Source of the DNA: Candidatus Saccharimonadota bacterium
Lineage (GTDB): Bacteria > Patescibacteriota > Saccharimonadia > Saccharimonadales > Saccharimonadaceae
NCBI GenBank assembly: GCA_017511925.1
Contig: JAFWHS010000018.1
Coordinates: 1-57,504 of the forward strand
Length of the DNA stretch: 57,504 nucleotides
Direction: 5' to 3'
A program made the translations under genes and the position numbers. Within the stretch, counting starts at the first letter, position 1. Each line of letters starts with the position of its first letter. This document shows positions 13,957 through 33,816 of this stretch, one piece after another. The notes below the pieces were generated by a model that saw only the letters and a program-made list of their open reading frames with translations, was not told the origin of the DNA and ran no database searches.

Positions 13957-14925
13957 TCAAATCTTATCCCACTCAAAGGCGTGGCCGTAGTGGCCGTAGC
14001 GGGCGGTCTCTTCGTAGATTGGGCGCTTCAAATCTAGGTATTTAATAATACCATTTGGCGTGAGGTCGTAGCCTTCAATTTCTTCTGGTTTGCCGTCGAT
14101 GATGACAGTTTTTTCGAGTGGCTCAGCATAGCCGATAGCATAGGCGAGACGGACAAGCACTTCGTGAGCGTTACGCTTTTTTAGATAATCCACGGCAATA
14201 CGACGAGCCATATAGGCAGCCGAACGATCTACTTTGGACGGATCTTTGCCAGAATAACAGCCGCCACCAATAGCAACAGCTGGGCCATAATTGTCTACGA
14301 TAAGTTTGCGGCCAGTAAGGCCAGTATCAGCATCAAAACCACCTTGGTTCCAGTCGCCAGCAGGATTAATATGAAGTTCTAGTTTGCCTTCTAGATTGTT
14401 TGCCGCAATAAACTCTTTGACCATAGCTTCAAGCTCAGCTTTTGGCACATTTTGGAAGCTGGCCACGATTGAGTCAATAGTGCCATCTGGAGCAATAGTA
14501 ACCTGAGTCTTACCATCGTAAGGATACTTATCATAAATAAATTCGTTAAGATTGCGTGAGATGACTACTTCTTTTGGCAACATTTCAGGCGTTTCGTCTG
14601 TAGCGTAGCCGATCATGATACCTTGGTCTCCAGCTCCACCAGTGTCTACGCCCTGAGCGATTTCGGGAGATTGCTTGACGATCTTGGTATGGACTTCGAC
14701 GTCGTTGCCAGCGATACGTTTAACGATTTCTTCAATATTGATGTCGTCGGCAGTGGATGTGATTTCGCCAGTGACGAAAACTACGCCATGACCACCACAA
14801 GCTTCTGCGGCGACGCGTGCATTAGGATCTTTTGCTAAATATGCGTCCAAAATCGCATCGCTAATTTGGTCGCAAAGTTTGTCTGGGTGTTTTGGAGAAA
14901 CGCTCTCCGCTGTTCTGTAGAACAT
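13957..14925 (-). CDS. metK: S-adenosylmethionine synthetase, compact form
   Basis: The 322-aa enzyme makes SAM from methionine and ATP. It shows the N-terminal ESVSPKHPDKLCDQISDAILD, the GAGDQGIMIGYA loop, DGKTQVTI, and GGGCYSGKDPSKVDRSAAY near the end. It is about 60-80 residues shorter than standard MetK (380-400), mainly in the segment before GAGDQG and between domains. The catalytic motifs are kept, so it should be active. The start is set by AGGA 5 nt before the ATG. A SAM-I riboswitch immediately upstream makes the regulation clear. Confidence 0.96.
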   Translation of the reverse strand: MFYRTAESVSPKHPDKLCDQISDAILDAYLAKDPNARVAAEACGGHGVVFVTGEITSTADDINIEEIVKRIAGNDVEVHTKIVKQSPEIAQGVDTGGAGDQGIMIGYATDETPEMLPKEVVISRNLNEFIYDKYPYDGKTQVTIAPDGTIDSIVASFQNVPKAELEAMVKEFIAANNLEGKLELHINPAGDWNQGGFDADTGLTGRKLIVDNYGPAVAIGGGCYSGKDPSKVDRSAAYMARRIAVDYLKKRNAHEVLVRLAYAIGYAEPLEKTVIIDGKPEEIEGYDLTPNGIIKYLDLKRPIYEETARYGHYGHAFEWDKI

Positions 14926-15011
14926 ATCTTTCCTTTCTGGTCGGAATTACCACCTTGCATTGGCAGGTTGGCAGGAGGTCAATGGGCCGTTCCCTCACTC
15001 CTTCTTGATAT
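14924..15011 (-). promoter_or_regulatory. SAM-I (S-box) riboswitch, compact, overlapping the metK start
   Basis: The minus strand has the S-box core: ATCAAGA, GGGAACGGCCC with TGA, GCCAACC, and AAGGTGGTAATTCC. P2 is AGGAG (15002-14998) with CTCCT (14977-14973). P4 is TTCC (14946-14943) with GGAA (14933-14930), which contains the metK Shine-Dalgarno. P1 is ATATC (15011-15007) with GATAT (14928-14924), which contains the AT of the start codon. SAM binding would therefore hide both, giving translational control. The loop-to-J3/4 pseudoknot of standard S-boxes is not obvious. Confidence 0.88.
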
Positions 15012-15028
15012 TATATTAATGTAGCTTA

Positions 15029-27804: not shown

Positions 27805-28224
27805 TTAAAGTTCGCGAGCGACAGGGCATTGCATGGCGAGTTTGTGGTCAAAAGTCCAGAGTGGGGTTTCTTGTGTGGTATCCGCCATGACTGCTAGATA
27901 ACAATCAACAAAGGAAAGTTTTGGATGCCCCGCGTAGATATCGAGTGCGCCTTCGATAATAGATTTATTACAAACTAGATTAGGAATCTGCATGACAATT
28001 TTAATTTTTTCTGCTACTTTTTTCCTGGGATAACAGTATTCAGCGCCAGATAAAACAAAAACTAGCTCCATCATAGCGGCATCTTCAAAAACATATAATT
28101 TTTCTTCGTGAGAAAAAAGTTTGCGAGCTTTTTTGAGAAGCCTCTCGTCATCACGAGTGATGAGGCGGACCATAATATTAGTGTCGATACGTTCTATGCC
28201 GTCTTTTTTGCTTATTAAACCCAT
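27805..28224 (-). CDS. PIN-domain toxin (VapC-like ribonuclease)
   Basis: The 139-aa PIN nuclease has the expected acidic residues: Asp in RIDTNIMVR, Glu in AAMMELVF, Asp in LSFVDCYLAV and Asp in WTFDHKL. VapC toxins cleave tRNA or rRNA and are held by a partner antitoxin. The start overlaps the AbrB-type antitoxin gene by 10 nt, the standard order. The RNA target is unknown. Confidence 0.88.
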   Translation of the reverse strand: MGLISKKDGIERIDTNIMVRLITRDDERLLKKARKLFSHEEKLYVFEDAAMMELVFVLSGAEYCYPRKKVAEKIKIVMQIPNLVCNKSIIEGALDIYAGHPKLSFVDCYLAVMADTTQETPLWTFDHKLAMQCPVAREL

Positions 28225-28505
28225 GTATCCCCCTTAATGTTTTTGGCAAGCTCGAGAGACATCTCGCCAACCGACATATGCTTAGTGCGAGGATCTGGCG
28301 ATGGGGTCGGATATTTTTTGTCTACAGCTTCAAGCTCCGCCATGATTTCATCGAAAGTTTTCTGCTTTTTAAGGGTAATAGTGTTATTTTCCTCATCTAC
28401 TGCAACGTCAAGTTTGGCGCCAGATTCGAGCCCTAGGAGCTTGCGAATGTTGCGGGGAATGGTAATCTGGCCGACAGAGCTAAGAGTGAGAGTTTGTGGT
28501 TGCAT
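28215..28505 (-). CDS. AbrB/SpoVT-type antitoxin
   Basis: The 96-aa protein has an N-terminal swapped-hairpin AbrB domain (LSSVGQITIPRNIRKLLGLESGAKLDVAVDE) and a C-terminal tail that would wrap the PIN toxin. It should bind its own promoter as a dimer and autoregulate. AAGGA lies upstream of the ATG. Confidence 0.88.
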   Translation of the reverse strand: MQPQTLTLSSVGQITIPRNIRKLLGLESGAKLDVAVDEENNTITLKKQKTFDEIMAELEAVDKKYPTPSPDPRTKHMSVGEMSLELAKNIKGDTWV

Positions 28506-29582: not shown

Positions 29583-29591
29583 TGATATACT
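29583..29591 (+). promoter_or_regulatory. Extended -10 promoter of the 29.6-kb leader
   Basis: TGATATACT; the predicted +1 (about 29598) is the first base of the leader's P1 helix. Confidence 0.65.
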
Positions 29592-29597
29592 GAAAGT

Positions 29598-29743
29598 GCG
29601 AAATTACAATTTGTCATTTTTTATAAGTTTATTCGAGCGATAAGTGCGGCTATTTACGTAATTTGCTTGAATAAAGACAAATTGTAGTTTCGCGACTAAG
29701 TAAATAGTCGCATTTTTGTTAGGTGCGGCGGAATGGAGGAAAA
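29598..29743 (+). promoter_or_regulatory. Structured attenuator-like leader, copy 1 (loop-terminator pseudoknot)
   Basis: P1 is 18 bp (29598-29615 with 29676-29693); a 12-nt bulge on the 5' side; P2 is 11 bp (29628-29638 with 29665-29675). The apical loop 29642-29657 is complementary over 16 bp to 29700-29715. That stretch is the 3' half of an intrinsic terminator, GCGACT/AGTCGC (29692-29697, 29706-29711) plus T5. A repeat of the loop core, GTGCGGC (29723-29729), follows next to the ribosome-binding site. Each helix has one or two G-U pairs, all in the sense strand. Confidence 0.75.
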
Positions 29744-31171
29744 ATGAGCGGCGAGGACTACAATGCCGAAAAAACGCAAAATGAAAGCCCAATGGCAGAA
29801 TTGGCAAATGAAGCAGATAATTTTGATCCAGAAAAAGCAGAAAAAGCCAGAGCGGAACGAGAAGCCATTATAGATGCGCAGGGCATGAGGACTAGTGGGT
29901 ACACTGAGTCTGATTTCGGAAAAAAGGAGCTTGACGTAGAATCTGATTACGATCGCATTGCGGGAAAATTAGAGCGTGCCGTCCAAGAAGGCAGGATGAC
30001 GAAAGAGCATGCTGATAAGCTTTTAGAAAGACAGTTAAATTCATCAATTGATAAAATTGACAGTATTCGTCAAGATTTTGAGGATAGTAAAACTGCAGGA
30101 TCAGAAGAGGACCAAAGGGCGTATGAACAATGGCTAGAAAGCAGTAGTGATTTAGAAGTAGAACCAATAGTGGAGGAAGTGGCTGCCACGGAAACAATAT
30201 CAGAGCAAGCTGAATCCGATGAATTAGGCGCAGAAGATAATGGTGGGGATTTATATAGCGGAGAATACAGGGAGCAAAAGAATGCCCCGACCATTGACTT
30301 ATTTACAAAGAGACGCAAATTGATAGAAGAACAATTTTCGGCGCTAAAGCCGCTTTCTCCTGAGGAAATACGACGATACCTAAACGATCCAGCTTTTCAA
30401 GAAGAAATAGACCAGGCCCGTGCTCAAGTGCCAAAAGGGGTAGCTGAGGAACATGATTTGCTAGGGAGAATGGTCGGTAGATTGGAGGCTGGGATTGGAG
30501 CCAACCTAACGCCGGATCACCCATGGGCCAACAGCGAGCCAAACTATGTCCCAACCGAGCTCGCCGAAGAAGGTTACGAAGGCATGGTAGTAACAAGATG
30601 GAAAGCTGAAGAATCGAAAAAAGATTTGGAAAGAATGCGAGAATTACATGAAAAGAACTCTGAAATAATTGATTTTAGCAGGGAAAACGAGGTAGATATT
30701 GATACGGTCCCAGAGGAATTACAAGCAAAAATTGAAAGTATATCCAGCGAGCTAGAGGCGCTGGAGTCGGCCGAACTGAGCGATTTTGAATCTCATGGGG
30801 ATAATCGCCCGAAAGCGTCCGCGACTTGGGATAAAATTTTCCAAATGGTCCCAGCAGGTTTAAGTTATGCGGCAAGAAAAGAACTCAGGAAGAAAAGTCA
30901 CGAATTTCAAAAGCAATATATGGAAGCTAAAGACGCCGCCGAATTGCGCAATATAGACAGCCAAATGGCAAGGTTGCAACAGGAAAAAGCCGAAATAGAG
31001 GAGCGGCAAAAACAGTACGAAGATGCCAATGTAGTAACCAAGCTATTTAATCGAATGTTTAATTCGAAGCGAAGAGAGGAAGAAGAAACTCGTGCAGGAA
31101 ATATATATCACCGAATGCAAGAATTGCAAGAACGAGCAGGAAGGATCAGAGGAAAAAATAACGTAGAATAG
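29744..31171 (+). CDS. Highly charged coiled-coil protein of unknown function
   Basis: The 475-aa protein is rich in Glu, Lys, Ala and Arg and has no signal or membrane helix. Long helical, heptad-like segments lie at about 30-125, 290-345 and 375-470, with a central part containing APTIDLFTKRRKLIEEQFSAL and TPDHPWANSEPNY. I do not recognise a domain. The ATG at 29744 follows GGAGGA by 3 nt; a GTG at 29723 would add seven residues. It is a single-gene unit with a structured leader and a strong terminator, so its expression appears tightly controlled. Confidence 0.7.
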   Translation: MSGEDYNAEKTQNESPMAELANEADNFDPEKAEKARAEREAIIDAQGMRTSGYTESDFGKKELDVESDYDRIAGKLERAVQEGRMTKEHADKLLERQLNSSIDKIDSIRQDFEDSKTAGSEEDQRAYEQWLESSSDLEVEPIVEEVAATETISEQAESDELGAEDNGGDLYSGEYREQKNAPTIDLFTKRRKLIEEQFSALKPLSPEEIRRYLNDPAFQEEIDQARAQVPKGVAEEHDLLGRMVGRLEAGIGANLTPDHPWANSEPNYVPTELAEEGYEGMVVTRWKAEESKKDLERMRELHEKNSEIIDFSRENEVDIDTVPEELQAKIESISSELEALESAELSDFESHGDNRPKASATWDKIFQMVPAGLSYAARKELRKKSHEFQKQYMEAKDAAELRNIDSQMARLQQEKAEIEERQKQYEDANVVTKLFNRMFNSKRREEEETRAGNIYHRMQELQERAGRIRGKNNVE

Positions 31172-31218: not shown

Positions 31219-33816
31219 TTAGATAAGGGTCAGCTGGGTTTTGAGGCGGGAGATGAGAGATTCTTTCTCTTTGATGGCATCTATCGTCTCTTTGACGAGG
31301 TGCTCTGGAGCACGTTCGACATAATTTGGATTCATCATGCGGGCGTTCAATGCGTCTAGTTCGCGGCCAACAGAGAGGATTTTTTCGGTTAGAGCATCTT
31401 TATACTCTTTGACGACCTTTTCGGGAACGTCAAGATAGAGCTCATGATTGGCAAGAGCAACACGGAGGCCTCTGGGAGCGCCATTTAGAGGATCTACGGC
31501 CGGAACCTTAGTGAGAGCCTTGACTAAAAGCAGATTATCCTCCACGAGGCTATCATTGTCGTATAATAGTGTATATTTTTTCGCGTTATTGGTGCCTGAC
31601 AGGGCCTGCAAGGTGCCTCTAACTTCAGACACGATAGTTCTTATGTTTTCAAACTGTTCGGCTGAGATCGGGTCATATTCAAGCCTGGTGGGCCATTTAG
31701 CTGTAATAATCATGCCCTCAGTCCAAGAAAGATTTTGCCAAATTGCTTCGGTAACGAATGGGGCAAATGGGTGAAGGGCGACGAGAATAGTTTCGAGGGT
31801 TTTCTTGAGAAGCGGAACATTGCGATAAATCTTTTGAGATTCAAGGAACCAATCGGCGTATTTATCCCAAATAGTGCTATAGAGAGTCTCGACAGCTTCG
31901 GCAAAGCGATAAGCTTCAAAGTCTGCCTCAATCTGATCGAGACAATCATTTAGTTCGCGGCAAATCCAATCCTCGCCCTGATTAAGGGTAGTATAAGAGT
32001 CTAGTGAATCACCTTCGTCTACAATCCCCTGGATGAAGCGAGAGATGTTCCAGAGTTTATTGCAGAGATTACGGCCGGAAATGACGCTATTTTCAGAGAA
32101 AGCTTGGTTCATGCCAGCGGAGCGACCGCGAAGAATACCAAGGCGGAAAGCATCGGAACCATATTTTGCAACAAGATCCATTGGGTTAATGACGTTACCC
32201 TTACTTTTGCTCATCTTCTTGCCATGGGCGTCAAGCACAAGACCGTGGAGATAAACTTCTTTAAACGGCACTTCGCCAGTGACATAGAGACCCATCATAA
32301 TCATGCGAGCAACCCAAGCGAAGAGGATATCGGCACCAGTCTCCATGACATTTAACGGATAGTATGGGCTGGGGTTTTCTTCGGTCCAGTCAGTACAAAC
32401 GATTGGCCAATGAGAGCTAGAGAACCAAGTGTCAAATGTATCTTCGTCGCGGACATATTTGACGCCAGCTTTTTCGATCTCTTTGAGGTCGGTACGGCGA
32501 TCAAAGATCCAGTCGGGTTCATCGGTAGCTTCGCTGTTGGCTTTTCTAAACATTGGGATCGCAATACCCCAAGGAATCTGGCGGGAAATATTCCAATCTT
32601 TAAGATTTTTGAGGTAATTAATAAGAACTTTTTGCTTGTTTTCTGGGTAGAACTTAATCTCGCCTTTTTCAAGATGCTCAATAGCGGTGGCGGCGAGTTT
32701 TTTGACATCAACAAACCATTGCTCTTTTAATGTGGGCTCAAGGACAGTGCCACATTTATAACAGTGCGCTACAGAGTGCACAATCTGCTTTTCACCTCTT
32801 AAGAGACCTTGGTCTTTGAGATCTTTTAAGACCTGTTTGCGACATTCGGCAGCAGTGAGACCTAAATATTTCTCTGGAACGTTGATCATGGTGCCGTCTT
32901 CGGCAATAACCTGGATGCGCTCAAGATTATGACGTTCGCCAACCTCGAAATCATCAAAATCGTGAGCAGGGGTGATTTTTACGGCACCAGTGCCATACTC
33001 CGGGTCAGCATGCTCGTCAGCAATGATGGGAATCGTGCGGTCGGTGAGAGGTAAATGGACTTCTTTGCCAATGATATCTTTATAGCGTGCATCATTCGGA
33101 TTTACGGCTATGGCAGTGTCGCCAAAGAGAGTTTCAGGGCGAGTAGTCGAAACAATTATATCGTCATAGGCAATTTCCCAGAGAGTGCCTTTTTCGTCTT
33201 TGTGCTCAACTTCGATATCAGCGAAAGCGGTTTGATGTTTGGGGCAAAAGTTGACTAATTTTTTACCTCTGTAGATCATGCCATCGTTCCACATTTTTTC
33301 GAAAGTGGTGTAAACACGGTCAATAACGTTTTCGTCTAGGGTGAAGGTGAGGTCATCCCAAGCGCAGGAAGCGCCCAGAGCTCGGAGCTGAAGTTCCATA
33401 TTGCCACGTTGCATGGCGACAAAATCCCAAACCCTAGCGTAGAGTTCGTTGCGGTCGTATTCAAAGCGAGTGTGGCCCTGAGCTTCAAGAGCTTTTTCGT
33501 AAACTACCCAGGTTTCAAAGCCGGCGTGGTCGGCGCCTGGAATATACCAGGTAGACTGACCTTTTAAGCGGTGGTAGCGGGTGAGAGAATCTTCAAGAGC
33601 GATAGTAAGGCCATGACCAATGTGAAGGTTACCGTTGGCGTTTGGTGGTGGCATAACGATAGAATATGTATTGGCATTGAGTCGATCATCGTGGCCATTG
33701 CCGTCGTCATCTACCGGTACTGTGGGAATTACAGGATCAAAGGCGCCGCTGGTCTCCCAAGCAGCATAAATATCGGCTTCATATTGGTTTGGTTCGTAAC
33801 TACTCGCAAATTTCAT
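31219..33816 (-). CDS. valS: Valyl-tRNA synthetase
   Basis: The 865-aa class I synthetase charges tRNA-Val. It has HIGH as HIGH within NGNLHIGHGL, KMSKSKGNVINP, an inserted editing domain (about 170-340, TTRPETLFGDTAIAV), the anticodon-binding helical domain and a C-terminal coiled coil. The length is normal. TATAAT lies 6 nt before the ATG and no ribosome-binding site is seen. Confidence 0.96.
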   Translation of the reverse strand: MKFASSYEPNQYEADIYAAWETSGAFDPVIPTVPVDDDGNGHDDRLNANTYSIVMPPPNANGNLHIGHGLTIALEDSLTRYHRLKGQSTWYIPGADHAGFETWVVYEKALEAQGHTRFEYDRNELYARVWDFVAMQRGNMELQLRALGASCAWDDLTFTLDENVIDRVYTTFEKMWNDGMIYRGKKLVNFCPKHQTAFADIEVEHKDEKGTLWEIAYDDIIVSTTRPETLFGDTAIAVNPNDARYKDIIGKEVHLPLTDRTIPIIADEHADPEYGTGAVKITPAHDFDDFEVGERHNLERIQVIAEDGTMINVPEKYLGLTAAECRKQVLKDLKDQGLLRGEKQIVHSVAHCYKCGTVLEPTLKEQWFVDVKKLAATAIEHLEKGEIKFYPENKQKVLINYLKNLKDWNISRQIPWGIAIPMFRKANSEATDEPDWIFDRRTDLKEIEKAGVKYVRDEDTFDTWFSSSHWPIVCTDWTEENPSPYYPLNVMETGADILFAWVARMIMMGLYVTGEVPFKEVYLHGLVLDAHGKKMSKSKGNVINPMDLVAKYGSDAFRLGILRGRSAGMNQAFSENSVISGRNLCNKLWNISRFIQGIVDEGDSLDSYTTLNQGEDWICRELNDCLDQIEADFEAYRFAEAVETLYSTIWDKYADWFLESQKIYRNVPLLKKTLETILVALHPFAPFVTEAIWQNLSWTEGMIITAKWPTRLEYDPISAEQFENIRTIVSEVRGTLQALSGTNNAKKYTLLYDNDSLVEDNLLLVKALTKVPAVDPLNGAPRGLRVALANHELYLDVPEKVVKEYKDALTEKILSVGRELDALNARMMNPNYVERAPEHLVKETIDAIKEKESLISRLKTQLTLI

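Follow-up and report, generated by a model that had tools for sequence, protein, structure and literature searches.

On comparative grounds, the plus strand at 29596-29717 of the window (the whole 57,504-nt stretch of DNA analysed, from an 832-kb genome in 24 contigs) carries a leader RNA that is a member of a family-restricted, previously undescribed cis-regulatory RNA family, well supported as a structure. With a probability of roughly 70 %, we take it to be a 5'-terminal, cis-acting leader through which the downstream gene is regulated by attenuation of transcription. Central to this reading is the tip of a long hairpin: covariation among homologues shows selection for a 12-bp pairing of the apical loop with the loop and the 3' arm of the intrinsic terminator.

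Architecture of the leader RNA

The following elements can be recognised in the window.

29583-29591 (+): extended -10 element TGATATACT, with no clear -35; in 90 of 100 family copies, a TGNTATAAT-like box precedes P1 by 6-7 nt
29598-29615 (+): P1 5' arm, 18 bp, pairing with 29676-29693; the predicted start is at, or a few nt from, its first base
29616-29627 (+): J1/2, a one-sided 12-nt joining segment and possible hinge; extra hairpin in some relatives
29628-29640 (+): P2 5' arm, 13 bp, pairing with 29663-29675
29645-29648 (+): P3 5' arm, 4 bp, pairing with 29657-29660; overlaps the loop-tail segment
29646-29657 (+): loop segment GCGGCTATTTAC, forming 12 bp with the tail; 84 of 102 copies are perfect, and several positions show compensatory changes
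29657-29660 (+): P3 3' arm, from folding of the window RNA
29663-29675 (+): P2 3' arm, from folding and family covariation
29676-29693 (+): P1 3' arm, from folding and family covariation
29692-29698 (+): terminator 5' arm GCGACTA, its first two bases common to P1; this arm and the loop segment are of one sequence class
29700-29711 (+): tail GTAAATAGTCGC, comprising the terminator loop and 3' arm; partner of the loop segment
29712-29717 (+): A and T-run (ATTTTT) of the intrinsic terminator, directly after the terminator at 29692-29711
29723-29729 (+): third copy of the GCGRC core (GTGCGGC), 3' of the T-run; once read-through has occurred, it can pair with GTCGC in the tail
29735-29739 (+): ribosome-binding site GGAGG, from the sequence
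29744-31171 (+): controlled gene, encoding a 475-aa charged protein without a Pfam match, in a hypervariable slot adjoining valS

The window RNA folds with -56.4 kcal/mol, against -31.5 +/- 3.4 kcal/mol for shuffled versions (z = -7.3), and none of 200 shuffles did as well. The hairpin, the terminator and the loop complementarity of the original prediction all lie where it had placed them. P1 has the 18 bp announced; P2 turned out to be 13 bp long rather than 11 bp, and an additional helix of 4 bp, P3, was found. The whole 16-nt loop (29642-29657) is indeed complementary to 29700-29715, the family-conserved part being the 12 bp between 29646-29657 and 29700-29711, and the copy of the loop core beside the ribosome-binding site is present as GTGCGGC. 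Since P3 shares bases with the loop-tail segment, it competes with the full loop-tail helix.

The -10 element of the window reads TATACT (29586-29591) and stands 6 nt before P1. Among the 100 family copies examined, 67 have a perfect TATAAT, while matches to a -35 are barely better than random. As the -10 is fixed 6-7 nt upstream of P1, the transcript start is put at the foot of this helix, and the regularity of the spacing (90 of 100 copies) supports a leader RNA that begins at the predicted +1, as had been proposed. Across the family, G.U pairs outnumber A.C mismatches by 37 to 5 in outer P1 read on the sense strand. This excess identifies the plus strand as the functional RNA strand.

Elsewhere in the window, both on the minus strand, are a SAM riboswitch (14921-15014; RF00162, 61.4 bits, above the gathering score) and two adjacent small genes (27805-28505) which, judged by eye, resemble a PIN-domain/AbrB-type toxin-antitoxin pair.

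Novelty and distribution of the family

A search of Rfam 15 gave nothing at or above the gathering score, the only matches being weak, mostly to microRNA-type hairpins, and far below the cut-offs; the RNA is thus without an Rfam family, as the original prediction of novelty implied. By blastn over 100 related genomes, about 15 from the same genus proved to carry similar elements, several of them with at least two copies at unrelated loci. A covariance model built from twelve elements (R1) was refined on 72 (R2). In the genus Candidatus Nanosyncoccus (Saccharibacteria), 45 of 174 genomes together hold about 75 copies by covariance modelling, and at the level of the bacterial family copies occur in 14 of 61 sampled genera, with a patchy distribution. 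The total comes to about 100 members, all in this one family. Outside it, no match was obtained with R1 in 295 order-level genomes or with R2 in 393 class-level genomes. Exact-pattern matches fell mostly in Candidatus Saccharibacteria genomes from the ruminant gut and other samples. A phage origin was rejected, the lone pattern match on a viral contig being a chance match in apparent coding DNA, and five matches on genome contigs outside Saccharibacteria were dismissed on the same grounds.

Covariation of the stems and of the loop-tail pairing

Taking all stems together, 94 % of the cells of the alignment hold standard pairs and 572 cells show double changes, compared to 171 after shuffling; the alignment behind these counts was fitted to the structure, and an unfitted alignment shows the same picture. 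In P1, 95 % of cells are paired and two-sided changes affect 15 of the 18 pairs. The sequences of P1 and P2 vary almost freely while pairing is retained. The 5' side of J1/2 ranges from 4 to 31 nt (median 11), with an additional hairpin in some copies, and about 70 % of copies have 0 nt on its 3' side. The local stem of the terminator is paired in 95.6 % of cells and has no two-sided changes. A lack of covariation in homologues had been named with the original prediction as a refutation; relatives showed strong covariation, of the loop-tail pairing as well, and the hypothesis came through this test.

The tip of the hairpin has the consensus GCGRCYAUNUNC, complementary to the terminator loop and 3' arm. 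All 12 loop-tail pairs form in 84 of 102 copies and 11 of 12 in 14 more; the loop position was picked for its maximal pairing, and the runner-up position within an RNA typically offers 8 pairs. Among 29 distinct loop/tail sets, 97.7 % of cells are paired and 48 cells carry two-sided changes as against 16.3 in shuffled controls, so that the proposed pairing is real by the measure of its homologues. Sliding the register by 1-3 columns lowers pairing to 25-51 %, and the 31 matches left out of the building of R2 mostly keep 11-12 of the 12 pairs. Compensatory changes are found both inside and outside the terminator stem; positions 8-12 sit in the terminator loop, and their covariation can therefore not be attributed to that stem. 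Two copies (G185C14 and G375C1) combine a damaged terminator stem with an intact loop-tail pairing.

Geometry and direction of the proposed switch

Because the terminator stem and the loop-tail helix have the 3' arm in common, complete formation of both is impossible. The linker measures 4-9 nt (median 6). With a straight hairpin it would reach the tip in 0 of 69 copies, whereas with a bend at J1/2 a crude distance estimate lets it do so in 64 of the 69. The earlier view that full P1 and the loop-tail pairing exclude each other thus holds for a straight hairpin and gives way, by this crude estimate, for one that bends at the one-sided P1/P2 loop. On average, P1 (16 bp) and P2+P3 (17 bp) are of matching length, which had been considered as proof of a fold-back; the match fails a copy-by-copy permutation test and so leaves the fold-back model without independent support.

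Comparison of the sequences shows a transcript set to start at the foot of P1, a long hairpin of P1-P2-P3 and an intrinsic terminator directly after P1. The sequence of events that we propose is as follows. During passage of the polymerase, the tip of the hairpin would swing back at the one-sided J1/2 hinge and first touch the terminator loop through a 5-bp kissing contact. It would then take the 3' arm, so that the terminator would be prevented or undone and transcription would proceed into the gene; if the loop made no contact, the RNA would stop as a product of about 120 nt. Following read-through, the 3' arm could be captured by the third core copy, which lies near the ribosome-binding site, and in methyltransferase-linked copies the start-codon region could pair with the freed P1 3' end and terminator 5' arm as an added translational brake. 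A protein, a metabolite, temperature or polymerase speed are candidates for the controlling signal.

Given cis-acting attenuation, we lean, with the original prediction and at somewhat better than even odds, towards loop capture as the antiterminating state, since contact with the terminator loop can begin before the 3' arm is made. A strand pairing immediately 5' of a U-run can take the place of a terminator hairpin, and in the same family, likewise in cis, the loop-tail duplex by the U-run might itself release the polymerase, so that loop capture would turn the gene off. Since the loop copies the terminator 5' arm, its capture could equally be a second terminator, the loop then being the stronger of two terminator arms, and since the loop-tail helix and the terminator stem have their end base beside the U-run in common, this helix may promote rather than prevent termination. 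Such a role is favoured by the mean duplex energies (-17.4 kcal/mol for the isolated loop-tail helix versus -7.7 kcal/mol for the local hairpin, the cost of the pseudoknot not included) and by the loop-tail pairing being retained where the local stem is damaged. However, such a mechanism requires entry of the loop strand into the exit channel of the polymerase while it is tethered to a long hairpin, and the local stem is itself conserved, which would be needless for a second terminator. We consider this arrangement possible rather than probable. Against the antiterminating reading, the 3' arm is still within the polymerase when the decision to stop is taken, so that full 12-bp pairing by that time is doubtful.

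Alternative readings

The terminated transcript of about 120 nt might instead be a stable, trans-acting small RNA, with the downstream genes only partly co-transcribed. Its own promoter, 5'-terminal helix and terminator would suit such an RNA, as would its presence in several copies with a common loop sequence that are partially compatible within a genome: between copies of the same genome, a foreign loop and tail form 10.7 of 12 pairs compared to 11.9 for a copy's own, and cross-talk is possible. However, the position just upstream of ribosome-binding sites is conserved, a core copy lies 3' of the T-run, and the start-codon complementarity is in cis. A trans-acting partner RNA was also sought by scanning eight genomes with the loop and tail 12-mers. 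Only one perfect copy outside the leaders turned up (G007, C1:72981), and one-mismatch copies were at control level. The lack of further perfect copies in seven of the eight genomes argues for cis action, and we regard a small RNA acting in trans as unlikely.

A ligand-binding riboswitch, its aptamer formed by the bent P1-P2-J1/2 structure, is improbable to the same degree. The attenuator architecture and the hinge with its additional hairpin in some copies are compatible with it, but no conserved unpaired nucleotides suited to a pocket were seen, both J1/2 and the junction of P2 with P3 are variable, and the controlled genes lack a common metabolic theme. Conserved bases appear, in alignments judged by eye, to be confined to segments that pair with the loop, the tail or P1. 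That the element acts as DNA, as a recombination site or operator, can be considered largely refuted: a long inverted repeat, patchily distributed and placed in a hypervariable slot adjoining valS, could be read in this way, yet the one-strand G.U bias, the fixed -10 spacing and the T-run speak against it, and the loop-tail covariation makes sense only for a single strand.

Comparison with known systems

Cis-acting attenuation remains the preferred reading, and at the level of sequence the element has the make-up of an intrinsic-terminator attenuator: a leader starting at a promoter, with an intrinsic terminator before the gene, and a conserved alternative pairing (12 bp, using the terminator 3' arm) incompatible with the terminator stem. 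Riboswitches, T-boxes and ribosomal-protein leaders of this kind have the same order of promoter, exclusive pairings at the terminator, ribosome-binding site and gene. In contrast to them, the competitor is here the apical loop of a 5'-terminal hairpin, which forms a pseudoknot with the 3' arm and resembles the terminator's own 5' arm in sequence, and neither a ligand pocket nor tRNA-binding elements can be recognised. No T-box match was obtained, and the downstream genes are not in an aminoacyl-tRNA or amino-acid context.

In antisense-RNA attenuation of plasmid leaders (pT181/pIP501 type), loop-mediated pairing also decides on terminator formation, but in the present RNA loop and partner belong to one molecule, and most genomes scanned lack a perfect partner in trans. 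The leaders of type III toxin-antitoxin systems (ToxIN type) are laid out in the order promoter, structured RNA, terminator and gene. The order is alike; however, no tandem RNA repeats and no endoribonuclease toxin gene were seen, and what follows the RNA is not a ToxN-like nuclease but many unrelated protein families, including methyltransferases and pilins.

Downstream genes

The order RNA, gene, valS of the window site is also that of about a dozen relatives. In these, valS (31219-33816 in the window) is 75-84 % identical and the gene in between (slot 29744-31168 in the window) often cannot be aligned to that of the window. A protein-based search found no relatives of the 475-aa protein. 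The proteins 3' of the RNA at loci L126, L121, L041, L120, L127, L125, L134, L035, L123 and L124 have a common N-terminal segment, ENNGAE-LSEMPSFEEHM followed in many by LPEGVRD-DYEEY, and then diverge; relatives of the window's downstream protein align over the N-terminal region only.

Genes of methyltransferase type lie downstream of 13 copies. By Pfam they are EcoRI-type, N6_N4 (Mod-type) and MmeI-type, with a generic methyltransferase domain in G436; those of G307, G335 and G546 are without a Pfam match and were assigned by eye. Other copies precede genes for a type IV secretion pilin, GIY-YIG nucleases, Fib_succ_major surface proteins, TM2 and NUDIX proteins, and many downstream proteins have no Pfam match. 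A further GCGRC core lies no more than 40 nt beyond the T-run at 47 of 103 loci, where shuffled sequences would give 3.2. At 10 of the 13 methyltransferase-linked loci, 8-17 bp can form between the start-codon region and the P1 3' end and terminator 5' arm, compared with a mean of 3 at other loci; since the methyltransferase-linked copies are partly related, the associated p = 1e-6 overstates their independence. The complementarity occurs with several different methyltransferase types.

At L168 (about 4439-4378, minus strand), a 20-codon ORF starts in the leader-complementary stretch and overlaps the start of an MmeI-type gene, which suggests translational coupling of the two. At L153 (downstream of 3022, genome G042), the EcoRI-type methylase gene 3' of the RNA appears to be broken after 56 codons. 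At L137, a DUF3800-XI RNA (RF02975; 6261-6308) lies a few kb from a locus where the RNA stands with an EcoRI-type methylase.

Implications

In the literature searched, no regulatory RNA family specific to Saccharibacteria was found, and for Patescibacteria a 2024 perspective treats riboswitches as no more than a tool for the future (PMC11665869). With about 100 covarying members, the RNA family provides a testable control element in Saccharibacteria, tied to restriction-modification and surface genes, and raises the mechanistic question whether a pseudoknot that copies a terminator arm can start or stop termination. Genes for DNA methyltransferases, surface proteins and pilins are often phase-varied in other bacteria. 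Tentatively, a family-specific hairpin tip that captures a terminator may offer these host-dependent, ultrasmall bacteria a protein-free and possibly bistable form of control, common to DNA methyltransferases, surface proteins and pilins, to which the methyltransferase copies would add a second, translational arm.
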